This document shows, piece after piece, positions 20,658 to 49,401 of a stretch of DNA of 64,000 nucleotides. The stretch spans positions 62,001 through 126,000 of the forward strand of contig JAFUBX010000026.1 in assembly GCA_017459985.1 (NCBI GenBank). Direction: 5' to 3'. The stretch's first letter is position 1. Each line of letters starts with the position of its first letter. The notes under the pieces are model-generated. The model saw nothing but the letters and a program-made list of their open reading frames with translations, had not been told where the DNA came from and made no database searches. Made by a program: the position numbers and the translations under genes. The stretch comes from Parasporobacterium sp. GTDB lineage: Bacteria; Bacillota; Clostridia; Lachnospirales; Lachnospiraceae.

Positions 20658-20689
20658 TTCATCTGATTTTCATTTAGCATGCTTATAAT
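20658..20689 (+). promoter_or_regulatory. Promoter of the two-component operon with 11-bp TTCAT repeats
   Basis: TTCAT occurs at 20658-20662 and 20669-20673, exactly 11 bp apart, and TATAAT follows at 20684-20689. The repeats cover the place of a -35 box, as for PhoB/OmpR-class activators. The same arrangement is found at 23081, 28648 and 49348, which points to autoregulation by the encoded response regulator. Confidence 0.7.
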
Positions 20690-20741
20690 GATGATGAAAT
20701 GCGGATCTGCGCAAAGATTCAGAAAAGGGATGGGAAAAGAT

Positions 20742-21419
20742 ATGAGGATTTTGCTGGCGGAAGATGAAAAATCCATCAACCGCGTGATCACAAGGCGGCT
20801 CGTCTGGGAGGGATATTCGGTGGACTCCTGTTTTGACGGACAGGAGGCGCTGGATTATCTGAATGCCATGGAATATGATGCTGTCATACTGGATGTAATG
20901 ATGCCGAAGATCGATGGTTTTGAGGTGCTGACTCAGATGCGGGAGCGGGGAGATGATACGCCGGTATTATTTCTGACTGCAAGGGATTCCCTGGCTGATA
21001 AGGTGGAAGGGCTGGACCTCGGCGCGGATGACTATCTGGTAAAGCCCTTCGAATTCGATGAGCTGATGGCAAGGCTCCGGGTGCTCACAAGGCGCAAGGT
21101 TACTTCTCCGACCAGCCTTTATGTCTGCGAAGACCTCACCCTGGACAGCACCCATCACAAAGTGAACCGGGGAGATCAGGAACTGACCCTGACCGCCAAG
21201 GAATTTGCCCTGCTGGAATATCTGATCCGCAACAAGGGAGTCGTACTCAGCCGGGAGCAGATCGAATCCAATCTCTGGAACTGGGACTGTATCGTCGGTT
21301 CCAACGTGGTGGATGTTTATATCCGTATGTTGCGGAAAAAGGTGGACGCGCAGTTTGATCATAAGCTGATCCAGACTGTCCGGGGCTACGGATATGTGCT
21401 GAAGGAAGTGGAAGAATGA
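20742..21419 (+). CDS. OmpR/PhoB family response regulator
   Basis: A DNA-binding response regulator of 225 residues. The receiver domain (1-118) has the acidic pair in LLAEDEKS, phospho-acceptor Asp in DAVILDVMMPKIDG, Thr in LFLTARDS and Lys in LVKPFEFDE. The C-terminal winged helix (about 128-222) has LTAKEFALLEYLIRN and RKKVDAQFDHKLIQTVRGYG. ATG 20742 begins exactly at the receiver strand; longer in-frame starts lie upstream. It overlaps the kinase gene by 4 bp. Winged-helix regulators of this class bind 11-bp direct repeats, matching the TTCAT arrays at its own promoter and three others here. Confidence 0.93.
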   Translation: MRILLAEDEKSINRVITRRLVWEGYSVDSCFDGQEALDYLNAMEYDAVILDVMMPKIDGFEVLTQMRERGDDTPVLFLTARDSLADKVEGLDLGADDYLVKPFEFDELMARLRVLTRRKVTSPTSLYVCEDLTLDSTHHKVNRGDQELTLTAKEFALLEYLIRNKGVVLSREQIESNLWNWDCIVGSNVVDVYIRMLRKKVDAQFDHKLIQTVRGYGYVLKEVEE

Positions 21420-23023
21420 AGCTGCAGACAAAGCTGACTTTATGGTTTGCCGCTCTGCTCCTTTTGGTGGCGGGAGCCTTACTGCTCGCGCTTCAGATGG
21501 TCTCCGGCAGCGCTGCCCGAAACACGGCTTCGACCACATTGAAAAATGCGGTCAACAGTTTTGCAGGCGAGCTGGATTATGACCACGGCCAGCTGCGCAT
21601 CAGTAAATCCGGCACTTATGACGACGGCGCATACCTGCAGGTATACAGCGCCGACGGAAGTGAACTGCTGGCCGGATCGGATGTGTTTTCGATCCAGTCC
21701 CTGATGCCGGATTTCCTGTGGTCCCACGATGCGGGACAGGTCTTTCCTATTGACACGGAGGAAGCCAGTGTCTATTGCCTGATCCGCTGGCTGTCGGAAG
21801 ACGCAGATGACCACGGTCATTCCGGAAAGAAAGGCGGCGCCGAAGAGCCGTTTTCTGTAAAGGACGGGGAGGACGGGTCGAAGCCCGCCAAATCAGACGA
21901 AAACGGGACGAAGTCCGCCAGATCAGACGAAGACAGAACGAAATCCGCTGAATCAGACACTGGTGAGGAAAGCCCGAAGCTCACCAGACAGGAATCAGAA
22001 GACTCCGGAGAAATCCTGAATTTTCAAAATGGCAGCAGCCCGGAGGATGGGGAATCAGGCGGAGTCTGGATCGTTGGGATCCTGCCCCGGGACAGTATGG
22101 ATAATCTCATGAATTCCATCATGCGGATGGGATATATCGGGCTTCCGGTCATTCTGCTGCTCGCCGTTTTGGGAGGCTGGGCAATTGCCGGCTCCTCCCT
22201 GCGGCCGCTGCGCAGCATCACGGAATCCGCCAGAAAGATCCGTGACGGCAGCGACCTGTCCCGCCGGATCGAGATCCGGGATGGAAAGGATGAAGTTCAC
22301 GAACTCGCGGAAACCTTCAACAGCATGATGAGCCGTCTGGAGCGTTCCTTCAACGCGGAGCGGCAATTCACCAGCGATGCTTCCCACGAGCTGCGCACCC
22401 CGACGACCGTTATCCTCGCCGAATGTGAAATGGCGGAAAAGGCAGCCGGAGAGGAAGAGGTCGTTCAGGAGTCCATCCGGGAGATCCACAAGCAGGCCCG
22501 GAAAATGTCTGAGCTGATCGGAAAGCTCCTCTCCTACACCCGTCTGGAACAGGGAACCCGCCGGATCGACCGGGAAGCAGTGGATCTTTCGGAACTGGTG
22601 GAGGATGTCTGCGAAGAACAGCGGACCGTGGCAGTCCGGGGAATTCAGATCCGGAGCGAGACGCAGCCGGATCTTATGGTTATGGGGGATACCTCCCTTC
22701 TCATCAGCCTGATCCAGAACCTGGTGTCCAATGCAGTCAAATACGGAAAAGACAATGGCCATGTCCTGGTCAGAACTTATGTGCAGGGAAAGAATGCCTG
22801 CGTCCTGGTCCGGGACGACGGCATCGGCATTGCCCGGGAAGACCTGGATCATATCTGGAACCGGTTCTATCAGACAGACCGTTCCCGCAGCGATGAATCC
22901 CGGGGCGTCGGCCTGGGGCTCAGCCTTGCCAGCCAGATCGCCCGCCTGCATCATGGCGAAATCACGGTGACCAGCACATTGGGGGAAGGCAGCGAATTTA
23001 TCTTCTCCATGCCCGCCGAATAA
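21416..23023 (+). CDS. Sensor histidine kinase with large extracellular Ser/Asp/Lys-rich segment
   Basis: Partner of the adjacent response regulator; 535 residues. Membrane helices lie at about 8-30 and 235-258, enclosing an extracellular domain. Residues about 135-205 of that domain are low-complexity with repeats such as SDENGTKSARSDEDRTKSAE. HAMP is at about 258-310 and HisKA at about 318-380 with the phospho-histidine in ASHELRTP. The ATPase domain carries the N-box QNLVSNAVKYGK, DDGIGIA and GVGLGLSLA. The repeated charged stretch is unusual for a sensor and resembles the tail of the PepSY protein at 28736. A hairpin terminator follows the gene. Confidence 0.92.
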   Translation: MKLQTKLTLWFAALLLLVAGALLLALQMVSGSAARNTASTTLKNAVNSFAGELDYDHGQLRISKSGTYDDGAYLQVYSADGSELLAGSDVFSIQSLMPDFLWSHDAGQVFPIDTEEASVYCLIRWLSEDADDHGHSGKKGGAEEPFSVKDGEDGSKPAKSDENGTKSARSDEDRTKSAESDTGEESPKLTRQESEDSGEILNFQNGSSPEDGESGGVWIVGILPRDSMDNLMNSIMRMGYIGLPVILLLAVLGGWAIAGSSLRPLRSITESARKIRDGSDLSRRIEIRDGKDEVHELAETFNSMMSRLERSFNAERQFTSDASHELRTPTTVILAECEMAEKAAGEEEVVQESIREIHKQARKMSELIGKLLSYTRLEQGTRRIDREAVDLSELVEDVCEEQRTVAVRGIQIRSETQPDLMVMGDTSLLISLIQNLVSNAVKYGKDNGHVLVRTYVQGKNACVLVRDDGIGIAREDLDHIWNRFYQTDRSRSDESRGVGLGLSLASQIARLHHGEITVTSTLGEGSEFIFSMPAE

Positions 23024-23052
23024 CCCCTGCCGGCTTCATGAACACGAATCCG

Positions 23053-23082
23053 GAGCAGCCACTTTCAAAGGCTGCTCTTTTT
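23053..23082 (+). terminator. Rho-independent terminator of the two-component operon
   Basis: GAGCAGCC (23053-23060) pairs with GGCTGCTC (23070-23077) around a 9-base loop and is followed by a T run. It directly abuts the TTCAT array of the next promoter. Confidence 0.8.
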
Positions 23083-23134
23083 CATTTGATTTTCATCTTT
23101 GCTTCATAACAGTTTCATGTCCTCTTTGTAAAGT
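23081..23134 (+). promoter_or_regulatory. Promoter of the redox operon with four 11-bp TTCAT repeats
   Basis: TTCAT begins at 23081, 23092, 23103 and 23114, a perfect 11-bp period. A -10-like TAAAGT follows at 23129-23134, the same distance from the last repeat as at 20684, 28696 and 49396. No separate -35 box is seen, consistent with a strictly activated promoter. The ATG of the operon is at 23173 with AGGAGG upstream. Confidence 0.72.
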
Positions 23135-23172
23135 ATCATCCATATCATGGTTTTATTTTACAAGGAGGATTT

Positions 23173-24453
23173 ATGCTGAATACAAAACAGATCCGGATGG
23201 CCTCCGGGCCAGTCCGTCCCGCAGCGGCTTATACAGAAGAATTTATGGAAACGCTCCATCGGATCCGGCAGGATCATCCCCAGCTTTCCTCACTGGGGTA
23301 TTTCCTGGATACCGCGGAGCAATGGTTCGGCTGGGCGTCCGAAGCCCGGCCGGAAGTGGTGGTTCTCGGACCGGACCTTCCGGAGGAGCTGATCCTGGCT
23401 GCAGGGGCTGTCCCCTACTGGCTTCTGGGCGGAAGCTTATTCAGCACTTCCTGGTCAGATGATCTGGTCCCCCGGGACACCGATCCCGTCAGCCGTTCAA
23501 TCCTGGGATATATTCACCGTCCCGGCGGTCCCGATTTTTCGGAATCCCTGTTCCTTATCCCCTTATCCTGCGACAGTATGCGCAAGATCGCGTATCAGCT
23601 GAAGCAGGAAGGCAAAAAGCTCTTTCTTGTGGACATTCCGCCGGAACAAAACAGACGGGAATCGATTCTTCAGTGGCAGAAACAGATGTTCCGGATGATG
23701 GAGGCCGTTGCGGATCATACGAACACCCGCGTTACCCGGCGCAGGCTGATCGATGCCCGGCTGACGGTTTCCCGGGCCAGAAAACTGCTGTCCGTCTTTC
23801 TGGATCTGGCCCGCGGCAGGGAAGATCTGCTGACCTTTGCCGCCCGGCAGCTGGTCAGAACCAGCTATTACTACACGGAAGATCCGGAGGAATGGTCGGA
23901 TCACCTTGAGATCCTCTGCCAGGAACTCAAATCGCATACTGCCCGTCTGTATCCCCGCTTCCGCCGGCCCGGGATCCTGCTGGCAGGTTCCCCAGTCCTA
24001 TTTCCGAATTATAAGATCCCGTTTCTTCTGCAGGAGATCGGACTGGATATCCGGGAATGTGTCGATCCCGCTGCCCTGAAGCAGTACGGCACCAATACCG
24101 GGCGGATCCTGCAGGGAGGCCGGGACCGTATGATCCGGGCCATCGCGGCGGAACGCTACCGGTACAATGCGTCTTCCTCCTTTGTTTCCAATGACGCGAT
24201 GTACCGTTATATCATCGGCAGTCTGATGCATGGTGACATCGAAGGAGTTGTGTACCATGTCCTCAAAGGACAGATCGAATACGACTTCGAGCTGGAGCGT
24301 CTGGAATCTCTGTTTTCCGATTACGGCATTCCTGTTTTCCGTCTGGAAACGGACTATCAGTATCAGGACGTGGAGCAGCTCCGGATCCGTATGGAAGCCT
24401 TTGCGGAAATGCTGGAGCAGAATCGTTATCAGGAGGTGAAGCAGGCGCAATGA
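23173..24453 (+). CDS. Degenerate 2-hydroxyacyl-CoA dehydratase (HgdB/BcrC)-like subunit
   Basis: A 426-residue protein of the HgdB/BcrB/double-cubane superfamily. It shares fold landmarks with the product of 25610 (LAGSPVLFPNYKIPFLLQEIG; IEGVVYHVLKGQIEYDFE; FRLETDYQYQDVEQLRIR). Most cluster ligands are lost: the PRDxC position is Asp104, CDC reads C133-D-S135, and the RGC position is Gln367; only Cys133 remains of those. It has just three cysteines (133, 249, 296). It may be a structural partner of the cysteine-rich paralogue rather than a cluster-binding catalyst. It overlaps the polyferredoxin gene by 4 bp and is first in an operon controlled by the TTCAT promoter. Confidence 0.82.
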   Translation: MLNTKQIRMASGPVRPAAAYTEEFMETLHRIRQDHPQLSSLGYFLDTAEQWFGWASEARPEVVVLGPDLPEELILAAGAVPYWLLGGSLFSTSWSDDLVPRDTDPVSRSILGYIHRPGGPDFSESLFLIPLSCDSMRKIAYQLKQEGKKLFLVDIPPEQNRRESILQWQKQMFRMMEAVADHTNTRVTRRRLIDARLTVSRARKLLSVFLDLARGREDLLTFAARQLVRTSYYYTEDPEEWSDHLEILCQELKSHTARLYPRFRRPGILLAGSPVLFPNYKIPFLLQEIGLDIRECVDPAALKQYGTNTGRILQGGRDRMIRAIAAERYRYNASSSFVSNDAMYRYIIGSLMHGDIEGVVYHVLKGQIEYDFELERLESLFSDYGIPVFRLETDYQYQDVEQLRIRMEAFAEMLEQNRYQEVKQAQ

Positions 24454-25601
24454 GATCCCGAAAAAAACTCGTCATCACGGTCCTGGCCTGCCTGGGGATC
24501 GCATGTCCGGCTTACTTTGCTGGCAATCTTTTGTTTTTCGGATTCCCGGAAGAGGGGACGGATTATCCTGGCACCCTGCTGCCCTTCCTGATCATCCTCG
24601 CAGCATCGGCCGCCGGCATCATACTCTGTGTATTCCTGCGCCGCAGGATTTCCGGAACCGAACGGATCCAGGCCCGCGCTTCCCGAACCGGCAGGTCCGG
24701 CGCGAAGGATCTGATCCCGAAGCAGAAGCCTTCGGTATTTATGATCCTTCGCTGGGGACTTATGATCGTTTTTTCCTTCTTTATGATCGCCGGGGGACTG
24801 CTGTTCGGCCTCAGGATCTCCAGCCTCAGCATTCCGGTGCTGTCCTGCCCCTGGAACCGGGAGCAGATGGCGGAAGCAAGCTGCTATTATCTCTCCCATC
24901 TGAATGAACTGTTCGAGCTTCCTCTCACCGACATTCTGCTCTTTTTTGCCAGTACGCTGGGATTTACGATCGTGCTGGGACGGATCATGTGCGGGTTCTT
25001 ATGCCCTATGGGACTGATCCAGGATCTGATGGACAAACTGCGTCAGAAGCTTTGCATGAATGGCTTTACCATGAACGAAAAACGCTACCAGGCCGTAAAA
25101 CCGGTTAAATGGTGTCTGTTATTTCTCTTTTTCGGGCTCTGGTTTGCAGGGGGTAATTTCTGCAATTTCTGTCCCGCGATTACCGTTTCCCCGATCCTGG
25201 CAGGAATGAGCACCAGTTTGTATGTCAGCGGATTTCTCATGATTCTGGTCCTGATCGGAAGCTTTTTTAAACGGCGGATGTGGTGTCTGGTCTGCCCTCT
25301 GGGATATCTGGTCGGTCTGCTGCATAAAATCTCCCTGTTCCGGATCAGAAAGGACTGTACCGCCTGCACGGAATGCGGCGCCTGTTACGAAGCCTGTCCC
25401 ATGGGAATCAAGCTGATCTACACTGAGCGGGAGAACACGGATGTCACAGATGTCAACTGCATTATGTGCGGGGAATGCATCCGGAAATGTCCGGAAGACA
25501 ACGCCCTGTCCATGACATTTGCCGGAAAGCAGATCTACACAGCCTCCCGGGCACAGGTCATGAGCAGCTACCAAAGGAATCTGCGAAAGGAAGAAAGGTG
25601 A
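24450..25601 (+). CDS. Membrane polyferredoxin (NapH/CcoG-like 4Fe-4S protein)
   Basis: A 383-residue membrane protein. Helices lie at about 10-28, 43-62, 96-120, 160-178, 220-240 and 255-275. Two cytoplasmic cysteine motifs of the NapH type, CGFLCPMG and CLVCPLG, follow membrane spans. The soluble C-terminus has two ferredoxin motifs, CTACTECGACYEACP and CIMCGECIRKCP, for two [4Fe-4S] clusters. NapH-type proteins pass electrons across or along the membrane. Here it is placed to feed low-potential electrons to the activator/reductase proteins encoded next to it. Overlaps the upstream gene by 4 bp. Confidence 0.87.
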   Translation: MRSRKKLVITVLACLGIACPAYFAGNLLFFGFPEEGTDYPGTLLPFLIILAASAAGIILCVFLRRRISGTERIQARASRTGRSGAKDLIPKQKPSVFMILRWGLMIVFSFFMIAGGLLFGLRISSLSIPVLSCPWNREQMAEASCYYLSHLNELFELPLTDILLFFASTLGFTIVLGRIMCGFLCPMGLIQDLMDKLRQKLCMNGFTMNEKRYQAVKPVKWCLLFLFFGLWFAGGNFCNFCPAITVSPILAGMSTSLYVSGFLMILVLIGSFFKRRMWCLVCPLGYLVGLLHKISLFRIRKDCTACTECGACYEACPMGIKLIYTERENTDVTDVNCIMCGECIRKCPEDNALSMTFAGKQIYTASRAQVMSSYQRNLRKEER

Positions 25602-25609
25602 GATCCCAT

Positions 25610-26962
25610 ATGCAAACGGAAGAACAAAAAAGCAAAACAGCTCCGGGGCGGGAACCGCAGACAAAGTATCTCCGGGAGCAGCAGAAGAAGCAGCGCCAGC
25701 AGCAGCGTTTTATTAAGAAAGAAACTCAGACCGCCGCGAGATATCTCGGAAGGCTGGAGCAGCTGTCCGGGGCTCCGGCAGCGATGCAGCCCTTCGTCGA
25801 GGTACTGCGCCGGATCTATGTGGAAATGCAGGGAGTGGAGACCGACCGGCCCACCATCGGAACCTATTGTGTCATGGTTCCGCAGGAGCTGATTTACGCC
25901 GCCGGCGCCCAGCCGGTAAAACTGTGCTCCGGGAACTATACGGCATTTTCCATCGGAGATGACCTGACGCCAAGAGATGCCTGTCCGCTGGTAAAGGCGG
26001 TGGCCGGATTCCAGCATACCGGTCTCATGCCGGTTTACCGGGACTGCTCCATGATGGTGGTTCCGATCACCTGTGACTGCAAAAAGAAGATCGCCGGCAT
26101 GCTGAGGGATTCTGTGGAACTGATAACGCTGCATGTCCCCGCTTCCCGGGAGGATGCGGATATGGAAGCCTATCTGCGGCAGCTCTATGAATTGATGGAA
26201 CGGCTGGAGGCGGCGACCGGCAGTCCGATCAGTTCCGGTTCGCTGGCGGAGGGATTTCAGATGGTCGGACGGGCACAGGCAGAGTTTTCGGAATTTATCC
26301 GTCTTCGGAAATCCTCTCCTGCCCTCCTCCGGGGTACTCATTCCATGGCTATGATGAATGCTTCTGCCTACATGTCCGCGGATCGGTGGGCAGACGCCAT
26401 GCACGGGGTGAATCTGGAATTAAAGGAACGGATCCGCACGGGAGAAAAGATCAGCAGCCGTTCTCTTCCCCGGATCCTTCTGACCGGCTCCCCCATCGTA
26501 TTTCCGAATATCAAGATCCCTCTTCTGATTGAGGAAATGGGCGGCCTGGTCTCCGCGGATGAAACCTGCATGGGCGAGCGGGGGATGTGGGACCCGGCGG
26601 TGATCACCGATCACAGCTTTAACGGAATGCTGCGGGCTCTGGCGAACCGGGCTCTGCGGCCCTGTCCCTGCCCCACCTTCGCGGATAATACTCAGAGAAT
26701 CTATCGTCTGAAACAGATGATCCGTGACAATGAGATCCAGGGAGTCATCTATCATGTGCTGCGGGGATGCCTGGTCTATGATTTTGAATACAGGCAGATC
26801 GAGGAGGAACTCGGAAAACTGGAGATCCCGGTGATCCGGCTGGAAAGCGATTATAACGAAGAGGATGTGGAGCAGCTCCGGATCCGGATCGAAGCATTTA
26901 TCGAACTGATCAAGCTGCGGCAAGAACCGGTCCGCAGGACCGGCATCCGCGAATCATTCTGA
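25610..26962 (+). CDS. Cysteine-rich 2-hydroxyacyl-CoA dehydratase / double-cubane cluster protein-like
   Basis: A 450-residue member of the HgdB/BcrC superfamily with ten cysteines (87, 106, 125, 146, 155, 157, 320, 352, 354, 387). The three classical [4Fe-4S] ligand positions are present: PRDAC (125), PITCDC (155/157) and RGC (387). Additional cysteines (KLC106, RDC146, DETC320, RPCPC352/354) exceed what ordinary dehydratases need and recall the double-cubane [8Fe-9S] proteins, which reduce small molecules with ATP. An N-terminal Gln/Lys-rich extension (1-40) is unusual. ATG 25610 is used; upstream in-frame sequence overlaps the polyferredoxin gene. The next gene encodes the expected ATPase activator. 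Substrate is unknown. Confidence 0.8.
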   Translation: MQTEEQKSKTAPGREPQTKYLREQQKKQRQQQRFIKKETQTAARYLGRLEQLSGAPAAMQPFVEVLRRIYVEMQGVETDRPTIGTYCVMVPQELIYAAGAQPVKLCSGNYTAFSIGDDLTPRDACPLVKAVAGFQHTGLMPVYRDCSMMVVPITCDCKKKIAGMLRDSVELITLHVPASREDADMEAYLRQLYELMERLEAATGSPISSGSLAEGFQMVGRAQAEFSEFIRLRKSSPALLRGTHSMAMMNASAYMSADRWADAMHGVNLELKERIRTGEKISSRSLPRILLTGSPIVFPNIKIPLLIEEMGGLVSADETCMGERGMWDPAVITDHSFNGMLRALANRALRPCPCPTFADNTQRIYRLKQMIRDNEIQGVIYHVLRGCLVYDFEYRQIEEELGKLEIPVIRLESDYNEEDVEQLRIRIEAFIELIKLRQEPVRRTGIRESF

Positions 26963-26980
26963 AAGGAGATTTGATGCAAT

Positions 26981-27766
26981 ATGGGAAAATATTATATCGG
27001 ACTGGACGGCGGTTCCACATACCTGAAAGCGGCCCTGATCGGAAACGGACAGGTTGTCGATACGATGGTGCGAAGCACCGGCATCGACAACAACGGTACG
27101 GCACAGCTTCTTGCCCGGGAACTCTGCAATCGGAATGCCGTCACCCCCTCAGAGGTGGGGTACATTATGGCCACCGGCTACAGCCGCAAGGTTCTGGAAA
27201 TGGCGGATGACGATATTTCCGAGATCACCGCCCATGCCTACGGCGTGCGCCTTACCGCTCCGAAGGAATACCAGCCAGGTATGATCATCGATATCGGAGG
27301 ACAGGACAGCAAGATCATTTACCTGGACAGTCACTATGCGGTAAAGAATTTCAGCATGAATGACAAATGCGCCGCCGGTACCGGCAAGTTCATGGAGGTT
27401 ATCGCGCAGATCCTGGAAACCACTATCGATCAGGTGGGACCGCTGTCTCTGGAAAGCACCAGTCCCTGCGATATCAACAGCACCTGTGTTGTATTTGCCC
27501 AGTCGGAGGTGATCTCCCTGGTGGCCCGCAAATACGACCGGCGGGATATCCTGGCAGGAATGCATCTGTCCATGGTCCGGCGCATCATAAAAATGATGAA
27601 GAAGTCGGAAAAGCAGGGGGACATCCTGATGACCGGCGGCGGCGCCCTGAATATCGGGCTGCACAAAGCCTTTGAAGAGGAGCTGATGCGGGATGTCTAT
27701 GTGGCGTCCTGGCCTCAGTTCAACGGAGCGATCGGCGCTGCGCTGATCGGCAGTGAAAGGGGATAA
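26981..27766 (+). CDS. BadF/BcrA/HgdC-type ATPase activator (reductase)
   Basis: A 261-residue ASKHA-fold ATPase that, as a homodimer with one bridging [4Fe-4S] cluster, drives single low-potential electrons into a dehydratase or double-cubane partner at the expense of ATP. Phosphate-1 motif GLDGGSTYLKAAL lies at 6-18, IDIGGQDSK at about 103-111, the cluster cysteines in KCAAGTGKF and STCVVFAQSE, and the adenosine motif MTGGGALN near 220. AAGGAG precedes the ATG. It immediately follows the cysteine-rich partner gene. Confidence 0.92.
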   Translation: MGKYYIGLDGGSTYLKAALIGNGQVVDTMVRSTGIDNNGTAQLLARELCNRNAVTPSEVGYIMATGYSRKVLEMADDDISEITAHAYGVRLTAPKEYQPGMIIDIGGQDSKIIYLDSHYAVKNFSMNDKCAAGTGKFMEVIAQILETTIDQVGPLSLESTSPCDINSTCVVFAQSEVISLVARKYDRRDILAGMHLSMVRRIIKMMKKSEKQGDILMTGGGALNIGLHKAFEEELMRDVYVASWPQFNGAIGAALIGSERG

Positions 27767-27770
27767 AACA

Positions 27771-28505
27771 ATGGGGATCACAATATTAATCGAAAGTCTG
27801 ACAACCGCTGCATCTGTGGGAATGGGATGCGGCACCTGCTGCGGCAGCGGGATCAGCGCCGCCCTGTATGGATATCTGACCACCCATGCCAGGAATTTCC
27901 GGCAGACCCTGCGGGCATTTCTGGATTTCTTTCTCGGCAAAGCCCTGGCAGTAATCCTTCTGTGTTCCCTGGCGGCGATTCTTGGCCAGAATATCATCGA
28001 TGAAAACGGCAGCCTGTTCGGGATCAATCTGCATCTGATCGTGGATGCCTTCATGATCCTTCTGGGGATCCGGCTGCTGATCGGATGGCGGAAGGAACAC
28101 GCCGGCCGGAGTTCGGCAGGACATTCCAATCCGCATGGTTGCGGAAGCTGCCGGCACTGCGTTTCCGGAAAGCAGGATTCTCCTCTTCCGGAGCCGCCTG
28201 CAGCAAATCCCAGCAAGGCTGCACTACTCAGTATGGGATTTGGCTATGGTATCTCCCCCTGTGCCCCGCTCCTCATGATGATGGGATATGCAGCCACATT
28301 ACCGGTCGGATTTGCCGCAGTCCTCGGGGGCGTCTTCGCTGCTGCCAGTACTATTTCCCCGGCACTGCTGCTCCTTTTTCTCTCTGGCATCCTGGCTGGA
28401 AAAATGCGGAAAGAGATCCCGCAATACCTGAACTGGTTCCGCCTTGCCTGCTATCTGCTGCTGATCATCCTGTTTGCCGTCAGTCTGCTCCGGGATCTTC
28501 TATGA
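27771..28505 (+). CDS. Cysteine-containing membrane protein (DsbD/UreH/TauE-like)
   Basis: A 244-residue protein with about six membrane helices in two related halves (GKALAVILLCSLAAILG, LIVDAFMILLGIRLLIG; MGFGYGISPCAPLLMMMGY, LGGVFAAASTISPALLLLF). It resembles the DsbD_2/UreH-like group, which moves thiol electrons or metal ions across the membrane. Cysteines cluster at the N-terminus (MGCGTCCGSG), in a cytoplasmic loop (CGSCRHC) and in the second half (SPCAP), so thiol/disulfide transfer is plausible. ATG 27771 follows AAAGGGG; an in-frame GTG at 27753 overlapping the activator gene is less likely. Last gene of the redox operon. Confidence 0.72.
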   Translation: MGITILIESLTTAASVGMGCGTCCGSGISAALYGYLTTHARNFRQTLRAFLDFFLGKALAVILLCSLAAILGQNIIDENGSLFGINLHLIVDAFMILLGIRLLIGWRKEHAGRSSAGHSNPHGCGSCRHCVSGKQDSPLPEPPAANPSKAALLSMGFGYGISPCAPLLMMMGYAATLPVGFAAVLGGVFAAASTISPALLLLFLSGILAGKMRKEIPQYLNWFRLACYLLLIILFAVSLLRDLL

Positions 28506-28647
28506 TTTCCTTCCGGCAGTTCTCCCTTTCTTCAGATTCTCTTCTTCAGAAGGTTCGAACTGCAGTCGATATCGCTGTAGAAGATGCATTTGCATTTTCG
28601 GTGCTGCGGAATGACCTGGTTCCGGTGCCTCAGGACAGAGTTCTTTT

Positions 28648-28701
28648 TTCATCTGTTTTTCATAACTGCTTCATGGAGGTTTCATGTCATTTCCATAAAA
28701 T
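28648..28701 (+). promoter_or_regulatory. Promoter of the PepSY gene with four 11-bp TTCAT repeats
   Basis: TTCAT begins at 28648, 28659, 28670 and 28681, exactly 11 bp apart. TAAAAT follows at 28696-28701, 10 bases after the last repeat, as in the other members of this promoter set. The start codon is at 28736 with CAGGAGG upstream. Confidence 0.75.
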
Positions 28702-28735
28702 CACAACATCAAATTCAAAACAGGAGGAATAAAAA

Positions 28736-29326
28736 ATGAAGAAAACAGCAATCACAACCATCGCGCTTCTGGCGCTCAGTGTACTTGTATCCACAACAGC
28801 ATTTGCCGCCGAAACACCGGCAGAAAAAGAAATACCGGATTCCGTTTCTGCGGCAGTGCCTGAGAGGCCGGCTGTCACAGCGAAACTTTCGGAACAGGAA
28901 GCTCTGGCCGCTGCGCTCAAGGATGCCGGAGTATCACAGGCTGCTATTACTGTGACAAGAACTCAGCTGGCAGAGAAGCAGACAGACACCGGGGAAACCA
29001 TCCCTGTCTATACCGTGAAATTCTCTTCTGACACAACAAGCTATAAATACTATATTGATGCGAATTCCGGCTCCGTTCTTTATAAGAACATTGAGTATTC
29101 CGGCAAGGAATTCACTCTGAAGGAACGCAGCCATGATCGGGAGACCACAGAAAAATCCGACAGTGACTCCTCAAAAAACTATGAAAAATCCGACAGCGAC
29201 TCACCGAAAGGCTCTGAAAAAGCAGGCAGTCATTCTGTAAAGGGTAAAGGAGCTTCCGGCAGCAACTCCTCAACAGCTGAGAGTAATACCATTGCTTCCG
29301 GCAGCGGCCGGGATATTCTTAACTGA
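28736..29326 (+). CDS. Secreted PepSY domain protein with Ser/Lys/Asp-rich tail
   Basis: A 196-residue exported protein. Signal peptide 1-24 (KKTAITTIALLALSVLV, cleavage near AFA), one PepSY-like domain at about 50-125 (LSEQEALAAALKDAGV, IPVYTVKFSSDTTSYKYYID, GSVLYKNIEY), then a low-complexity tail with repeats of the kind EKSDSDSSKNYEKSDSDSPK. PepSY domains are often inhibitory or ligand-binding modules of extracytoplasmic proteins. The tail resembles the repeated extracellular stretch of the kinase encoded at 21416, and the gene has its own TTCAT promoter, so it may feed back on the sensor. A strong terminator follows. Confidence 0.8.
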   Translation: MKKTAITTIALLALSVLVSTTAFAAETPAEKEIPDSVSAAVPERPAVTAKLSEQEALAAALKDAGVSQAAITVTRTQLAEKQTDTGETIPVYTVKFSSDTTSYKYYIDANSGSVLYKNIEYSGKEFTLKERSHDRETTEKSDSDSSKNYEKSDSDSPKGSEKAGSHSVKGKGASGSNSSTAESNTIASGSGRDILN

Positions 29327-29370
29327 GAAACAAAGGATCCTGAACAATCACGAACTTCATTAACAACAAG

Positions 29371-29394
29371 AGCCCGGAAATTTCCGGGCTTTTT
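29371..29394 (+). terminator. Rho-independent terminator after the PepSY gene
   Basis: A perfect palindrome AGCCCGGAAATTTCCGGGCT (29371-29390) is followed by TTTTG. Confidence 0.9.
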
Positions 29395-29454
29395 GCATGC
29401 AGCGGGTTCCGTCAGTATTCCTCAGAGTTCCGCCGGTATCTTCCCACGCTCTTG

Positions 29455-29673
29455 TCAGTATTCCTTCTTCAGTTCGCTGACTTTGTAGGTGTCTTTGAAT
29501 TCCTGCAGGTCCTTGTCATTACGGATCCGCATGATCTCATGAAATATCCCCGATGCATTGTCCCGGAATCCTGCAGTCTGCTCTCCCGTACAGATGCTGC
29601 AGCGAAGCACCGGAGTGAAATGTGCCAGGTCATAGGTTGTGACAGGTTCTGTTTTTTTCTTTTTAAATAACAT
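29455..29673 (-). CDS. Small conserved protein with CxxC, unknown function
   Basis: A 72-residue protein starting MLFKKKKTEPV with RCSICTGEQTAGFRD in the middle. Similar small proteins are frequent in Lachnospiraceae genomes and sometimes carry misleading enzyme names. A single CxxC could bind metal in a dimer; nothing else is recognisable. ATG 29673 follows AGGAG at good distance and matches the usual N-terminus. An in-frame ATG at 29709 that touches the upstream stop would add 12 residues. It follows the YczE-like gene on the same strand. Confidence 0.65.
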   Translation of the reverse strand: MLFKKKKTEPVTTYDLAHFTPVLRCSICTGEQTAGFRDNASGIFHEIMRIRNDKDLQEFKDTYKVSELKKEY

Positions 29674-41224: not shown

Positions 41225-42084
41225 CTCACAGCCCTCTTCCGATCCAGCAGAATCGCATAGAAACCGGGCTTTCCGATATCCGCCAGGGTCTTACCGTCCA
41301 GGGCACAGATCCGGATGTCATCGAGGTCCGGCATGAGCGGTGTAAAGAATGGGATTCCCTTCTCATAATCCGCCTCCAGGGCGGCTCTTTTAAACATCTC
41401 CACATCCTGCAGGGAGAAGGGCTGGTCCGCATGCCCGCCGTAAATCTGTTCCGGCGCGAGGGAAAGGATTTTATCCAGGGTCCGGATGTAGGTCGCTTTA
41501 TCCGCAGCCTCTTCCCCGAACAACCACAGGAACAGATTGGCCGCATCTCCGGCATAGAGCCGGTTCTTTTCTTCATACAGCAGGGAGATGCTTCCCCGGG
41601 TATGGCCGGGTGTGGCAATCGCCCGCAGCGTTTTCCCGCCCAGGGAAAATATCATTCCCTCCTCTAAGGGCTGAATATTCCCGCAGCCTCCTGAAAGATA
41701 GGGATCCGGATCAAAATCCTCCGGCAGTGTATTGATCTCCTCTCCGGTGACCAGATCCCGGGAATGCCGTGCCAGTTCTACGGAACGGGCGCGGAAAGAC
41801 GGGTCATTATGGCGTTTCAGCAGATCCCGGTCCGCATCCGCCAGGAAAATGGCTTCTCCAAACTGATAATTGCCGCAGGTATGGTCCACATGCCCGTGGG
41901 TATTCACGATCTGAAGGGGTTTGTCCGTGATCTGACGGACTGTCTCCTTCAGCGGGCCGAATCCATATCCGGTATCGATCAGAAGCGCTCGCTCCGTACC
42001 GACCAGAAGCTCCATATATACATTTTCCGGGCTGGTAATCCGGTAGGTTCCTTCCTCTACCGCAGTCACACGATAATAATCCAT
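41221..42084 (-). CDS. MBL-fold metallo-hydrolase
   Basis: A 287-residue metallo-beta-lactamase-fold hydrolase. The metal-binding motif THGHVDHTCGN (HxHxDH) is at about 62-72, with GHTRGSISLLY and YAGDAANLFL supplying further His and Asp ligands and GGHAD near 220 the last histidine. Substrate class cannot be assigned; relatives include glyoxalase II-like and lactonase-like enzymes. It is located 21 bp downstream of the bidomain esterase gene on the same strand and may be co-transcribed. Confidence 0.85.
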   Translation of the reverse strand: MDYYRVTAVEEGTYRITSPENVYMELLVGTERALLIDTGYGFGPLKETVRQITDKPLQIVNTHGHVDHTCGNYQFGEAIFLADADRDLLKRHNDPSFRARSVELARHSRDLVTGEEINTLPEDFDPDPYLSGGCGNIQPLEEGMIFSLGGKTLRAIATPGHTRGSISLLYEEKNRLYAGDAANLFLWLFGEEAADKATYIRTLDKILSLAPEQIYGGHADQPFSLQDVEMFKRAALEADYEKGIPFFTPLMPDLDDIRICALDGKTLADIGKPGFYAILLDRKRAVS

Positions 42085-42105
42085 CTTTCTGCTCCTTATT
42101 CAGAA

Positions 42106-43836: not shown

Positions 43837-43923
43837 ATCCTGATACCTCTTTTCTTTCCTGAATTGCACGGGGCCGGCAGAGCGCCGACCCCCGTATTGT
43901 ATAAATGATCGTATATCCGGTGT

Positions 43924-45951
43924 TTATCTCGCTGTCCAGGGATTTTCGCTTGCAACTGCGTCATCCCAGATCCACTGCGCATCCATACCCATAAATCCCG
44001 TCAGATCATATTCCACATTAATAATGCCGTCATCTACAGTTCCTTCCACTGCCTGCGCTTCCCCAAATGTTACAAAGGTAAAGAAGAAACGGCTGAAATC
44101 ATCATTGGTAGCTGCTGTAATTTCTGCATCCCCAAATCCATAGGTTCCATTAAATACTTTCACCTGTGTATATTCGTCCGGAATTTCAACCAGCGCAACA
44201 TCGGAAGAATCTCCTTCCGAATCGGCGGATTCACCCTCTGCGGACTCGCCTTCTTCGGATTCACCTTCCTCAGACTCGCCCTCAGCCTCAGCTTCTTCCG
44301 CAGCCTCCGCATCCTCTGCTGCGGACTCGCCGGAACTGGACGGTGCTTCACTGATCAGGTCAAAGATCTCTTTGTCGAAGAAGTTGTACTTCATCTCGCT
44401 GTTTGCGCCGTCAAATACCATCGTGGCGCCGTTCTCCGGTGTGTATGCTTCCCACTCCAGATCTTCCGTGCTCGGATTTCCTGTGTAGGCAAAGGCTGCC
44501 AGGGCTCCGGACACCGCTGTGCCCATGGCATATGCGCCTTCCTCATCGCCTGCGATGAATTCCGGAATGTCGTCCACGTTGTTGAACCAGAACGGGATGG
44601 AGCTTGCGGTATGGATCGGCACGATCCCGCCGTACATCGCATAGTCATATGCCAGCAGGCTGTTGTAGCAGGTGCCGCCATAGGAAGCCATGGCATCCAG
44701 CATGCCGAAGGCTCCGAATCCGTTGTAACGGTCATTCAGGTACAGACCGTCCTTCATGGGATGGTTCGGGTATGCGGCTGCAAAGGCTTCCATGATCTGC
44801 GGGCCGTAATCCTCGCCCCACTTGGACACATATTGTGCGGCCACTGCCTCATCATCCATGTAGGCCAGCATGTTGTGGACATCATAGTTCGGGGAATAGG
44901 GAACTACTTCCGCATAGTTGGTGGAGAACTCGCCGAGCACGTTCGATGCGATGAACGGGATGTCTGCGGAGATCTCATAGGTGCCGGTCGGGATATAGTC
45001 GCCGTCTACGACAGGACCATAGGAAACGCCGGCTGCGGTGCAGGCTGCAAAGAGCTCTTCATAGGGAAGATCCACCAGGGCCTGGACGATCTCGTCATCA
45101 GAACCTTCCAGTCCGAGGTACTCCACCACTGCGGCTGCTTCTGCCTGGGACTGCTCGGTGGTACGGGTGATCTGCGCACTGCCGCCGGACAGGGCGACTG
45201 CCTTCTGGAACAGGCCCTTTGCGGACGGGGTGCTCATCAGTGTGGTGACCTTTCCGCCGCCGCCGGACTGGCCGATGATAGTGACATTGGAAGAATCTCC
45301 GCCGAAGGCTGCGATGTTGTCCTGCACCCACTGCAGCGCCAGCTGGATATCCATCTGGCCGACATTTGCGGAATATTTGTAAGCGTCGCCATAAGCGGAG
45401 ACATCAAAATATCCCAGGCAGTTCAGACGATGGTTTACGCTGACGAAGACCACATCATAGGCTCTGGCCATAGCTTCTCCGAAATAAAAATTAAACATCA
45501 GAGAGGATCCTGCGGAATATCCGCCTCCGTGAAGCCATACAATGACCGGGCGGGCCGCTTCGGTGCCGGTGCCCTGGGTCCAGACATTCAGGTTCAGACA
45601 GTTGTTCTCACTTTCTGTTAAAATCATATTATACGGAAAGCTGTTGAACAGATCCCGGGCTGCCGTATCATGGGCAGACTGAGGACAAACTTCACCCATG
45701 ACGTTTGCGCAGTACATGCCTTCCCAGGAAGCTGCCTGTGCAGGCTGGAAACGCTCTGCGGTTCCGTAGGGGATAGCAAAAAACGTATCCACCCCATCAT
45801 AACGATATCCCATCACATCTCCGCCGGTGACAGTTGCAGGGACACCGGTGACCGGTTCCGCAGCCTTCGCAGGAGATGCCAGCGCTGTTACCGATGTTAA
45901 GATCAGAACAGCCGTCAGAATGACTGCAATTACAGAACTCTTTTTTCTCAT
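43924..45951 (-). CDS. Secreted type B carboxylesterase with acidic repeat and C-terminal domain
   Basis: A 675-residue exported esterase. Signal peptide 1-30 (SSVIAVILTAVLILTSVTA). The carboxylesterase domain spans about 35-530: HGGGYSAGSS oxyanion region, NHRLNCLGYFD, IGQSGGGGKVT with the nucleophile serine, and a late His region. Residues about 535-590 are a Glu/Ser/Ala-rich low-complexity linker with GESEEGESEEGESAEGESA repeats, followed by a ~80-residue beta-rich domain of unknown type. AAAGGAGGG precedes the ATG. Divergent from the AraC gene at 46167, and upstream of the two-domain esterase on the same strand. Confidence 0.87.
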   Translation of the reverse strand: MRKKSSVIAVILTAVLILTSVTALASPAKAAEPVTGVPATVTGGDVMGYRYDGVDTFFAIPYGTAERFQPAQAASWEGMYCANVMGEVCPQSAHDTAARDLFNSFPYNMILTESENNCLNLNVWTQGTGTEAARPVIVWLHGGGYSAGSSLMFNFYFGEAMARAYDVVFVSVNHRLNCLGYFDVSAYGDAYKYSANVGQMDIQLALQWVQDNIAAFGGDSSNVTIIGQSGGGGKVTTLMSTPSAKGLFQKAVALSGGSAQITRTTEQSQAEAAAVVEYLGLEGSDDEIVQALVDLPYEELFAACTAAGVSYGPVVDGDYIPTGTYEISADIPFIASNVLGEFSTNYAEVVPYSPNYDVHNMLAYMDDEAVAAQYVSKWGEDYGPQIMEAFAAAYPNHPMKDGLYLNDRYNGFGAFGMLDAMASYGGTCYNSLLAYDYAMYGGIVPIHTASSIPFWFNNVDDIPEFIAGDEEGAYAMGTAVSGALAAFAYTGNPSTEDLEWEAYTPENGATMVFDGANSEMKYNFFDKEIFDLISEAPSSSGESAAEDAEAAEEAEAEGESEEGESEEGESAEGESADSEGDSSDVALVEIPDEYTQVKVFNGTYGFGDAEITAATNDDFSRFFFTFVTFGEAQAVEGTVDDGIINVEYDLTGFMGMDAQWIWDDAVASENPWTAR

Positions 45952-45984
45952 AATACCCTCCTTTTATTGTAATGTTTCGGCTTG

Positions 45985-46011
45985 ACTAAACAGTTCTGTT
46001 TTCAGTTTAGT
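45985..46011. promoter_or_regulatory. Inverted repeat in the divergent esterase/AraC region
   Basis: ACTAAAC (45985-45991) and GTTTAGT (46005-46011) are perfect 7-bp inverted arms 13 bases apart, 34 bases upstream of the esterase start and between it and the AraC gene. Likely operator or part of the promoter; binding protein not known. Confidence 0.45.
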
Positions 46012-46166
46012 AAAACGGATCCGGAAAAGATATGTTGAAAAGCAACACGAAAACTACATATATTTACATCTATTTCTGTTTACGATAATTATTTACAATG
46101 AAATCTTCTCAATTTTGTACATTCTGATCATTGAAAAAATCTCCCGTTCTATTGCACAATCAATGC

Positions 46167-47273
46167 ATGGCAGAAAATTACTATGTAACCCCTAAAATGA
46201 TAAAGGAATACAATCTCACACTAAAAAAAGAGGATCAGTCTCCTCCTTCTTTTTATGAGATGCTGCTGCAGATGCAGGATGCGGGACTGCTTTCGGAGGA
46301 TCCTCTTCCGATGCCTTTCATCAATGGCAAAATGGAGGTCCCGGAATTTCTGGAAGCCTATGACAGCATCCCGTTTCAGGTCAACAGCCAGCTAATCGCG
46401 ATTGCGGATGAACGGGAAGAAAAGGGGCTGGTGGTCTTTCCGGATCATACGGATCTTCTCTGCATGCAGCAGCTTCATAATAATATCTATTTTGACCAGA
46501 CAATTAACAATGCCTACGCCATTACTTATGTTTATAAGGGATTCTGCAGCTATACCTTTGATGACAGAACTCTGACGGTACATCCAGGGGATATTTTCAT
46601 TGCAACGCCCGGATTCAGCCACAGGATCTTTACGGTTTCCGGAACATTCGCTTTGGTCATTATGTTCCGAAGCACGGCGTTTCAGATCCTGTTTCAGGAT
46701 TTTCTGACTGCGGATACTGCTTTTTCAGACTTTTTCCGAAAGACGATCACGGAAAAGGAGAGCGGAAACTACTGCGTGATTAACGGTGCTCCCGAAGACG
46801 GGGACCTGACTTTTTACCTGCAGTCGCTGGTCTGTGAGACGTTCTCGGAGCATCCCTACTCCAACTCCAATGCGGCCTGTATGCTTAAGCTGTTTCTGTC
46901 CACAGCCTATGATAAATACAGTGACCACATGCGGATCTACAAACGTTTCCCCGGTACCGAACGGGCGGATGCCAAAACTGTTCTCCAATATATCCAGAAC
47001 AATTACCAGGATATTTCCCTGAATCAGGTGGCATCGCATTTTCATTATAATAAGACGTATCTTTCCCGATTCATCCATTCCCATTTTGGGAAGACTTACT
47101 GCGAAATCGTCAATGAATTAAAGATTGAACACGCAAAAGAATATCTGCGCAAGACAAATAAAAGTATCACGGAAATTTCCCAGCTCGCGGGATTTGAATC
47201 CTACGACCATTTTTCCCGGACATTCCGAAAATACACCGGATGTTCGCCGGGAAATTTCCGCAAAAGAAAGTAG
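46167..47273 (+). CDS. AraC family transcriptional regulator
   Basis: A 368-residue regulator. The N-terminal part contains a cupin sensor (about 95-180: YVYKGFCSYTFDDRTLTVHPGDIFIATPG). The C-terminal 100 residues are the paired helix-turn-helix domain (ISLNQVASHFHYNKTYLSRF, HFGKTYCEIVNEL, ITEISQLAGFESYDHFSRTF, YTGCSPGNFRK). The first 80 residues form an extra, poorly known segment. ATG 46167 gives a natural start (MAENYYVTPKM), but no good ribosome binding site is seen; TTG 46131 would add 12 residues. Divergent from the two secreted esterases, which it probably regulates. Confidence 0.85.
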   Translation: MAENYYVTPKMIKEYNLTLKKEDQSPPSFYEMLLQMQDAGLLSEDPLPMPFINGKMEVPEFLEAYDSIPFQVNSQLIAIADEREEKGLVVFPDHTDLLCMQQLHNNIYFDQTINNAYAITYVYKGFCSYTFDDRTLTVHPGDIFIATPGFSHRIFTVSGTFALVIMFRSTAFQILFQDFLTADTAFSDFFRKTITEKESGNYCVINGAPEDGDLTFYLQSLVCETFSEHPYSNSNAACMLKLFLSTAYDKYSDHMRIYKRFPGTERADAKTVLQYIQNNYQDISLNQVASHFHYNKTYLSRFIHSHFGKTYCEIVNELKIEHAKEYLRKTNKSITEISQLAGFESYDHFSRTFRKYTGCSPGNFRKRK

Positions 47274-47301
47274 TGCCAAAAAGAGCCTGATACTCCTCCG
47301 G

Positions 47302-49269
47302 TCAGGTTCCGGATACTTCCAGAATCACGTTTTCATAGGTTCCCGGCTCCGGCTGCGCTATCAGAGTGCCTCCTTCATAGCCGGGATTCGCGTTGGATGC
47401 ATCCGCACTCACGTAAATGGAAAGGCTCATGCCTTCCGGCACCGTAAGCACGGCTCCCTCCTCCAGGGTAAGGGAGGATACCGTGGAGGTTCCGGTCACG
47501 ATCCAGACACCGCCTGCCGTCACCGTTACGTCCGCTCCCAGATTTTCCGTTTCCGCATAAGCGGCATCCTCAGATCGGATCAGGTTTTCCCGGACTTCCT
47601 GAACCCATGACTCACCGGCAAACGGGACTTCCTGATATCCGTCTTCCTGCAGGACTTTCCGGAGTGTTTCCTCGCTCCAGAGGTCATTCCATCCCTGCCA
47701 GGTTCCCGACACAACCGCTCCCTGAAGCGTGCCGTTTTCTCCGATGGTAACGGACATGCGGCGCTGGTAATCCTGATGCAGGATATCACCGGTATACTCT
47801 CCATTCAGGAAGGTCACGTTTATACCCGGTACGTCTTCACCCTGCCCTGCAGAGAGATATCCGACGGCAGCGGGCGGATCAAAGGTCACCACGGACTGAA
47901 CCAAAACGTCGTTGGAGGTACGGGCATCGGTGTGGTCGAAGGTAAAATCCCCGTTCATGGACCGGATCAGGATCAGGGATCCGTAAAGATTGCGATTGTA
48001 GAAATAAGCCGATCCGGATCCGACGCCGAAGGGTGCCTCCGGATCCAGGAAGAAGGCGTCATCCGCCGCCATCGGTGTTACTGTTTCCGGAAGGTCCTGC
48101 GTCAGGGTGGAAAGGATCGCATCTTTAAAATTGCCCTCTGCGACCCGGTCCAGTCCCGGAATAGAGGTATGAACGACCACGGCATTAAACGGACCGGCAA
48201 TGATCGTCGGCTGCTCCTGTACAGTATAATCCGGAGTCTTGCTCATGGCATCCACATCCGCCATCGCATCCGCAGCGGTTCCGGTCTGCAGCAGGGAGGT
48301 TCCGCACAGAAAGGCTCCATACTGGCCGCCGTACAGCTGGGAAGCATACAGTTTCATCGCATAGGTCAGATAGGTGCCGTATCCTCCTTCCGTAGCGGTT
48401 CCGCAGGAGTTGACCACATAGGTGACGGCGTCCACAGAATCCTGTGAGATCGCGCCCCAGTTGTTCGAGGTCACTTTACTGTTGATGAACCAGCTGTTAT
48501 TCCGGGTCATCAGCAGTGTGGCGCGGCTTCCGCCCGCAAGCAGCTTGAAGGGCGGCATCCAGAGTTCTGCTTTGTCGGTATGCGTCGTGATCTCCGAATC
48601 CATCACCACGAGAGAGGTGGCTTCCGGCTGCGCAGTCCCGAACAGATACACCGGCACTGAGCGCGGGCCCTCCGAAGACAGGCGGCTGTTCCGGACCCAT
48701 AATTCTCCGGTATTTACTGCCACACCCACGCCATAGGCCGCTTCGTATCCCAGATCGTTATTTTTGAGGCCGGCGGATGCGGAGATTTCAGAATTCCCGA
48801 TCACATAGGTATCGGTTTCCTGAGGCAGGGAGATCGCAATTCCGTTGGACTCGTTGGCCGTGATGCTTGCGCCGTCCATTCCCTGTTCCGAAATCTCGCC
48901 GGAAATGCTCCCGTCCCAATCTTCGGCATAGGTGACCGTGCCATTCTCGATCCGGATCCCGGCCGCATCGGAGATCTCCTGGAACGTGCCGAATTCCTGG
49001 CCGGCTCCTCCCGGCCCGCCGGGACCTCCCGGACTGTCGACTCCGCCCTGGCTGTCGGCTCCTCCCGGAATATCTGTTCCGCCTGATTCGCCGGCGGCGG
49101 ATTCGCCCGGCTCGGATTCCCCGGGTACATTAACAGATATCTCACCACCTATCTGTCCGGCACCTTCTCCCGGCTGCACACCGGAGGCCAGTACCGCGGC
49201 TGAAGACAGTGATAATGTCAGCAACAATGCCAGAAAAGCGACGGCTGTTTTTTGCTTAAGATATTTCAT
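47302..49269 (-). CDS. Large secreted beta-rich surface protein with short collagen-like segment
   Basis: A 655-residue exported protein. Signal peptide 1-29 (KTAVAFLALLLTLSLSSAAV). Residues about 40-92 are Gly/Ser/Glu/Pro-rich with a short Gly-X-Y-like run (DSPGGPGGPGGAGQEFG). From about 110 on it is made of short beta strands with Asn/Thr/Gly turns (AGLKNNDLGYEAAYGVGVAV, LLMTRNNSWFINSKVTS), as in right-handed beta-helix or pectate-lyase-like surface proteins. No LPXTG or membrane anchor is visible at the C-terminus. Function unknown. It is divergent from the small-RNA promoter at 49348-49401. Confidence 0.7.
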   Translation of the reverse strand: MKYLKQKTAVAFLALLLTLSLSSAAVLASGVQPGEGAGQIGGEISVNVPGESEPGESAAGESGGTDIPGGADSQGGVDSPGGPGGPGGAGQEFGTFQEISDAAGIRIENGTVTYAEDWDGSISGEISEQGMDGASITANESNGIAISLPQETDTYVIGNSEISASAGLKNNDLGYEAAYGVGVAVNTGELWVRNSRLSSEGPRSVPVYLFGTAQPEATSLVVMDSEITTHTDKAELWMPPFKLLAGGSRATLLMTRNNSWFINSKVTSNNWGAISQDSVDAVTYVVNSCGTATEGGYGTYLTYAMKLYASQLYGGQYGAFLCGTSLLQTGTAADAMADVDAMSKTPDYTVQEQPTIIAGPFNAVVVHTSIPGLDRVAEGNFKDAILSTLTQDLPETVTPMAADDAFFLDPEAPFGVGSGSAYFYNRNLYGSLILIRSMNGDFTFDHTDARTSNDVLVQSVVTFDPPAAVGYLSAGQGEDVPGINVTFLNGEYTGDILHQDYQRRMSVTIGENGTLQGAVVSGTWQGWNDLWSEETLRKVLQEDGYQEVPFAGESWVQEVRENLIRSEDAAYAETENLGADVTVTAGGVWIVTGTSTVSSLTLEEGAVLTVPEGMSLSIYVSADASNANPGYEGGTLIAQPEPGTYENVILEVSGT

Positions 49270-49347
49270 TGTAATTCCTCCTGATACCGAATCTCACATT
49301 TATTTTCAATTTATCATAATGAAGGACTTTTGAAAACCGCTTCATTC

Positions 49348-49401
49348 TTCACATAACTTTCACATCCCGTTCATAATTTTTTCACGGCCGGCAAGTATTA
49401 T
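49348..49401 (+). promoter_or_regulatory. Fourth 11-bp TTCAY-repeat promoter, drives no protein gene
   Basis: TTCAC 49348, TTCAC 49359, TTCAT 49370 and TTCAC 49381 have an exact 11-bp period. TATTAT at 49396-49401 lies 10 bases after the last repeat, the same geometry as the promoters at 20658, 23081 and 28648. Orientation is rightward, away from the beta-rich surface protein gene. Confidence 0.68.

Follow-up and report, generated by a model that had tools for sequence, protein, structure and literature searches.

Do the four promoter-like repeat arrays in a 64,000 nt stretch of a Parasporobacterium genome (the stretch is hereafter called the window) answer to a single two-component regulator, as a preliminary description of this DNA had proposed, and what is transcribed from the one that lies apart, at 49348? 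TTCAY repeats with an exact 11-bp period are found at 20658, 23081, 28648 and 49348, and in all four cases 10 bases (N10) separate the last repeat from a TANNNT -10 box, as had been described. The genome (G000; 3.53 Mb, 131 contigs, 94.75% complete) was compared with 13 others of the genus (14 in all) and with up to 397 genomes of the family. The explanation that we favour, and consider probable, is that two regulons share one promoter grammar (i.e. tandem half-sites one helical turn apart and 10 bases from the -10 box), and that the second of them feeds a small RNA that would cover translation start sites.

Promoters of OmpR/PhoB-family regulators (e.g. PhoB/PhoP and HssR) carry tandem half-sites one helical turn apart. 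The arrays have the corresponding features of an OmpR/PhoB-type promoter, namely direct repeats with a period of ~11 bp near a -10 box. The likeness to the PhoB/PhoP and HssR promoters lies in these 11-bp direct repeats beside the -10 box, whereas the TTCAT motif and the fixed N10 are different; a putative HssR repeat (GTTCATATT) had no occurrence in the papers found. A scan of the whole genome, which the preliminary description had proposed as a check, yielded six exact four-copy arrays, three in the window and one each at C61:8543, C85:114656 and C100:70013. All six have a TANNNT box exactly 10 bases past a fourth repeat; the array at C100:70013 has five copies, the fifth of which falls within the N10. 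The reversed pattern gave no exact four-copy array on either strand of the genome. When three mismatches were allowed, the window gave five overlapping places from three arrays (dinucleotide-shuffle mean 0.07, largest 2) and the genome gave six extra, unrelated-looking places. Three copies with one mismatch added only two places, C59:167003 and C111:88546, the first of which has, by eye, no TANNNT at N10. Chance is insufficient to explain the arrays.

The arrays do not share one code, as had first been thought, but fall into two classes. Those at 20658, 23081 and 28648 are pure TTCAT and have a common opening string (TTTTTCATYTGWTTTTCAT), which C61 shares with one difference, whereas the array at 49348 reads TTCACA-N5-TTCACA-N5-TTCATA-N5-TTCAC. 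The second class opens with TTCACA-N5-TTCACA (49348) or TTCACATATTTTTCACA (C85), and the C100 array is mixed between the two. What follows the arrays differs as well. The first array stands before an OmpR-type regulator gene and the next two before a redox operon and a PepSY gene, an arrangement that domain matches confirm. A gene for a Cthe_2159 carbohydrate-binding-domain protein lies downstream of the C61 array, and a CBS-domain gene downstream of the C100 array, with another promoter-like sequence between the two by eye. Behind the arrays at 49348 and C85:114656 there is no gene; instead, both are followed by a common noncoding element. The 'remote transcript' proposed at 49348 thus appears to be noncoding rather than a protein gene.

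For the first class, an OmpR-family regulator gene is linked to the arrays at 20658, 23081 and 28648. Relatives of the regulator encoded at 20742 (E <= 1e-66) occur in 87 of the 397 family genomes, including G000, with 50-63% identity in the others. The regions upstream of the 29 best relatives were read; the regulator start was not placeable in four, and in two more the contig ends ~250 bases upstream. Two of these 29 regions, L361 and L365 (genomes G241 and G178), carry TTCAT-N6-TTCAT-N10-TANNNT. We also scanned 20 larger ortholog contexts (324 kb; from 20 of the 86 other genomes, mostly best hits, with the two site-bearing ones just mentioned included knowingly) for two copies with a -10 box or at least three copies. 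Regulator and kinase are adjacent in all 20, and the only two arrays in the 324 kb are both directly upstream of the regulator (L388 and L389). The TTCAT arrays at 20658, 23081, 28648 and C61 thus fit the OmpR-type regulator at 20742, and the comparison supports putative autoregulation through the TTCAT motif in the site-bearing lineages. In this first regulon, the 20742 regulator would act through TTCAT arrays to activate its own gene, those of the redox operon, that of the PepSY protein and the distant Cthe_2159 gene. The proposal of one regulator for all four arrays is supported for the first three of them (regulator, redox operon and PepSY gene), and not for the array at 49348.

The element behind that array is a predicted small RNA at 49408-49529, whose parts are listed in Table 1. 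A DNA search of the genus recovered 12 copies in five of the 14 genomes (two in G000, three in G006, one each in G012 and G005, and five in G013), and in 11 of these the four repeats agree with the array at 18-20 of 20 positions and are followed by a full TANNNT box at N10. The C85 copy has a folding z-score of -3.71. In the family, the array pattern with one mismatch occurs in 87 of 397 genomes, at ~100 places compared to five for the reversed control (summed by eye). The RNA core was found by script at 23 of 30 array loci read (L036 and L097-L125) and as a variant by eye at L106 and L108, and is missing from five; among 15 further array places, relatives of the RNA were seen by eye at L344, L345, L347, L348, L352, L353, L355 and L358, the rest being L346, L349, L356 and L357, whose downstream genes are described below, and L350, L351 and L354. 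An RNA model (R1) built from 18 sequences of array-selected loci matches 73 of the 200 genomes of the family that were searched (E <= 0.01), and in an order-wide sample 19 of 246 genomes, all within the host family, which record titles give as Lachnospiraceae; R1 counts are lower bounds, and the genus form of the window RNA is too divergent for the model. Among the 68 best R1 matches, 58 upstream regions exceed every one of 1360 mononucleotide shuffles.

Because R1 was built from array-selected loci, we also made a search with the RNA core only, which found at least 119 loci on named GTDB contigs (L211-L329); counts of loci below that are out of 119, 116, 115, 80 or 76 are among the matches listed. 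Most of 80 record titles name Lachnospiraceae or a genus of this family, and about a dozen are labelled otherwise (Clostridia bacterium, Eubacteriales, and metagenome bins named Bacillus and Muribaculaceae). Although the search pattern contained no promoter, 84 of 116 upstream regions match four TTHAY repeats without a mismatch (20 of 20 positions) and have TANNNT at N10, and 107 of 116 have at least 18 of the 20 with a full -10 box (the poor ones include L215, L223, L235 and L271). A 23-position upstream score reaches 22-23 in 105 of 115. The controls stay lower: 1150 dinucleotide shuffles score no higher than 21, the reverse strand no higher than 19 and the downstream side no higher than 18. 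The predicted RNA belongs to a family that is widespread in Lachnospiraceae. At the gathering score of Rfam 15, the window gives one tRNA only and 18 RNA loci give none; all other matches are sub-threshold.

Three further stretches around the core were noted. The 5' flank is often ACATAGATAAATTTTTTCAT in loci L211-L329; AGTTATACGTTTA, at 49477-49496 and 3' of the anti-Shine-Dalgarno (anti-SD) segment, is common to most genus copies, including C85, and absent from the family form; and a longer AGTTATACGTTTAACACAAA occurs in about half of the 12 genus copies and not in the family form.

The structure and strand of the element point to a noncoding RNA. In the family hairpin, 495 of 495 cells are paired over 45 distinct sequences, and five of 11 pairs have changed on both sides. 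Its covariation, measured on 46 of 73 length-matched loci with a search pattern that itself fixes three of the 11 pairs, is 0.450, compared with 0.227 for shuffled and at most 0.137 for slid alignments. The hairpin is more stable on the + strand at 118 of 119 loci, and a Shine-Dalgarno sequence with ATG lies inside the transcript region at only four of 119; the RNA is unlikely to be coding. One could read the core in the opposite direction, as the start site of a tiny minus-strand gene (SD-hairpin-AUG-AAA-AA), since its reverse complement without the hairpin is an ideal start site and 50 of 119 minus-strand frames begin with MKKFIY. The median length of these frames is 14 codons and the longest has 39, at the same 118 loci the hairpin is less stable in that direction, and the promoter array and -10 box are on the + strand, so that we regard a minus-strand gene as very improbable.

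Gene neighbourhoods bear on another possibility, that the element is a leader or antisense RNA for its neighbour, for example a convergent (p)ppGpp-synthetase-like gene. Among the matches listed, the next downstream gene is convergent in 67 of 74 cases (76 loci examined), and the largest cluster of next genes comprises 45 proteins, which we take to be RelA/SpoT-like, 43 of them convergent. A co-directional next gene in only seven of 74 cases speaks against a leader, and the neighbour differs in the remaining loci and in the window. A role in cis is therefore rather improbable, and we retain that of a predicted small RNA with its own promoter.

Which regulator drives this RNA? A single regulon, in which the 20742 regulator binds all arrays, including the small-RNA promoter, through broad TTCAY recognition, would account for the identical period and spacing of all arrays and for one genome having both four TTCAT sites and two copies of the RNA. 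The distribution of RNA and regulator argues against it. In 200 family genomes (on the assumption that these are the opening 200 entries of the family list), the RNA is present in 14 of 37 genomes with a 20742-type regulator and in 59 of 162 without (Fisher p 0.85), and genus genomes G005, G006, G012 and G013 have kept RNA and array without a regulator ortholog. In addition, the RNA arrays use TTHAC in repeats 1 and 2, whereas the others are pure TTCAT. We consider a single regulon unlikely, although cross-recognition within G000 may occur. The independence of RNA and regulator makes it likely that another OmpR/PhoB-type regulator drives the RNA; in this second regulon, that regulator would activate the small RNA at 49408-49529 and its second copy on C85 through the TTHAC...TTCAT array.

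Candidates for this second regulator were sought by their own arrays at 13 of the 16 PF00486 places of G000 (three weak ones were excluded), and a TTCAY pair was found only before the 20742 gene. The 21 regulator loci found in the 13 other genus genomes all match best the C97, C21 or C59 proteins of G000. The C59 protein is WalR/YycF-like (YycF is the best-scoring NCBIfam model, with 281 bits against a cut-off of 340), and each of the 13 other genus genomes has an ortholog (79-95% identity). Only this universality makes it a candidate, and nothing links it to the array; the WalR site, TGTWAH, does not look like TTCAT. We do not retain it.

Alternatively, the RNA arrays could be phosphate-starvation boxes and the RNA part of a Pho regulon, because TTHAYA repeats with an 11-bp period beside a -10 box resemble the PhoP box of Bacillus. 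At E <= 0.001, no TIGR02136 PstS match is present in 10 of 20 RNA-bearing genomes, including G000, and in the five upstream regions of over-cut-off pstS genes the repeats are, by eye, TTTAC-like and not TTCAT. The same boxes would be expected before pst genes and do not appear in these five regions, which weakens the Pho reading and leaves it improbable.

The sequence of the RNA itself suggests what it may do. The core consists of U5-6CAUAAU, the covarying hairpin and CUCCUC; it is complementary to a Shine-Dalgarno/AUG/AAA-AA start site, with the hairpin as an interruption. Without the hairpin, the reverse complement ends in ...AAAATGAGGAGTTATTATGAAAAA in many family members and in ...AAAAGGGAGGTGATTATGAAAAA in the genus form, and CAU and CUCC are then 3-8 nt apart in 78 of the 80 sequences listed, with a gap of 5 nt in 39 of them; in the two exceptions the fold picked another helix. 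Single-stranded UUUUUCAUAAU and CUCCUC/CCUCCC would thus flank the hairpin and be jointly antisense to SD, ~5 nt and AUG AAA AA. Pairing of the RNA with such start sites would block ribosome loading. In agreement with this, the duplex energy of the window RNA with 116 start sites, which a simple script predicted in eight stretches of G000, the window being one, averages -13.1 kcal/mol, compared with -11.0 for shuffled RNA (standard deviation 0.19) and -9.3 for gene-internal sites.

Some observations weigh against the proposed regulons and the proposed role of the RNA. On the regulator side, its own site is kept in only two of the 20 ortholog contexts and is missing from 18. On the RNA side, nine of the 14 genus genomes have no RNA match and one of the 12 genus copies (L054) has no array. 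Among the matches listed, an open frame of at least 90 amino acids overlaps seven of 76 cores, a terminator-like element lies within 170 nt in only 24 of 116 family-form loci (13.4 expected at random places), and the gap to the convergent next gene is below 20 nt in nine of 67. As for targets, the gain in duplex energy is expected of any anti-SD sequence and singles out no target. AAA-AA starts are rare, with ATGAAAAA at four and ATGAAA at 12 of the 116 predicted start sites. A search of 10 genomes for the start-site pattern gave 14 places in six genomes and two reversed-control places, with no recurring gene and none in G000.

These counts limit how far the target range can be drawn. Any bias to MKK-starting exported proteins would be presumptive, and a bias to MKK-starting genes is not supported in this genome because few of the 116 start sites have AAA-AA. 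It is possible, though we find it doubtful, that the hairpin holds UUUUUCAUAAU and CUCCUC at the spacing of a real ribosome-binding site, and that one RNA may shut a whole class of SD-AUG-AAA-AA mRNAs when a two-component system fires; it would then be a global brake, generic for start sites, and not a regulator of few targets. The rarity of such starts among those sampled makes this idea slightly less likely.

Table 1. Positions of the features discussed, in window coordinates
Feature	Position	Strand	Basis or remark
OmpR/PhoB-type response regulator	20742..21419	+	Response_reg and Trans_reg_C; nearest NCBIfam model cztR_silR_copR, 247 bits, under the cut-off of 279
Sensor histidine kinase	21416..23023	+	HAMP, HisKA, HATPase_c
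Redox operon (putative, from spacing)	23173..28505	+	Two double-cubane/HGD-D proteins, NapH-type ferredoxin protein, BadF-type activase, DsbD_2 membrane protein
PepSY-domain protein, signal-peptide-like start (start by eye)	28736..29326	+	Domain match
Two-copy TTCAT array, N10, TATAAT; putative promoter of regulator	20658-20662, 20669-20673; -10 box 20684-20689	+	Repeat read; same layout before orthologs in L388 and L389
Four-copy TTCAT array, N10, TAAAGT	23081-23118; -10 box 23129-23134	+	Pattern scan
Four-copy TTCAT array, N10, TAAAAT	28648-28685; -10 box 28696-28701	+	Pattern scan
Four-copy TTCAC/TTCAT array, N10, TATTAT; putative promoter of small RNA	49348-49385; -10 box 49396-49401	+	Pattern scan
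Predicted small RNA, ~120 nt (putative start and end)	49408..49529	+	Folding z-score -6.25
Anti-start segment AUUUUUCAUAAU, conserved	49430..49441	+	Genus and family comparison
Hairpin GAGUGCU/GGCACUC, CCCCC loop	49444..49462	+	Fold; covariation seen for family form only
Anti-Shine-Dalgarno segment ACCUCCCC	49463..49470	+	Genus and family comparison
Terminator-like hairpin ending in U-run	49499..49528	+	Fold; listed by the consensus scan for the minus strand only

The closest functional model that we found is in another host group. The csRNAs of Streptococcus are CiaR-controlled small RNAs that occur several per genome and have promoter repeats TTTAAG-N5-TTTAAG; their anti-SD and anti-AUG segments are described in unpaired regions and proposed to block translation initiation (passages of PMC3091779). 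Similar to the csRNAs, as portrayed in excerpts of PMC3091779 and PMC4507080, the present RNA has several copies per genome, a proposed control by a response regulator, a direct-repeat promoter, and anti-SD and anti-AUG segments. It differs from them, as far as these excerpts go, in having four half-sites (TTHAC/TTCAT-N6) and a fixed N10 instead of TTTAAG-N5-TTTAAG, and in the covarying hairpin that separates anti-AUG from anti-SD; the csRNAs were compared by description, not by sequence. By analogy, the present RNA would work alike, and we do not file it as a member of that family. Its best reading is that of a predicted anti-translation-initiation RNA, putatively controlled by a response regulator and working like the streptococcal csRNAs.

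LhrC RNAs pair via CU-rich single strands. In Listeria, LhrC1-5 and the two-component system LisRK are described in heme-stress adaptation (PMC6305404), and the likeness, again by description and not by sequence, is that of a small RNA family tied to a two-component system. The small RNA linked to RgaR in Clostridioides difficile is an example of a clostridial two-component system that acts via a small RNA (PMC10602386), although regulator and role differ. In the library searched, we found no description of an RNA of this kind from these anaerobes.

Arrays also occur without the RNA, at L104, L111, L120, L121, L356, L357, L346, L349, L351, L354 and L114 (the last simple-repeat-like). In other genomes of the family, L104, L111, L120, L121, L356 and L357 have TTCAC arrays (period 11 bp) before a short open reading frame (LEWYWWL-like where read), followed, where read far enough, by an ABC-transporter ATPase; a third regulon may thus use this promoter grammar. 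At L346 and L349 (~position 536), in two genomes, TTCAC arrays lie just upstream of a gene for a protein that is presumably VTC-domain-like. In the window, an intergenic repeat (GAAAATCTCACGCATTGCTGCA) occurs in three copies with 61-bp spacing beside the first array (20360-20503) and in three beside the fourth (49659-49802); the window has no further copy when up to three mismatches are allowed. Divergent from the small RNA, at 47302-49269 on the minus strand and near carboxylesterase and GDSL-lipase genes, is a gene whose 655-aa product begins like a signal peptide and matches no Pfam or NCBIfam model.

In brief, the promoter array, its spacing rule and the core of the RNA form a compact and testable module that occurs in many genera. 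The RNA family, which has no Rfam 15 match, offers a structural idea of how one RNA might recognize start sites as a class, and the array grammar would make it possible to deduce from sequence which genes several OmpR-type systems control.

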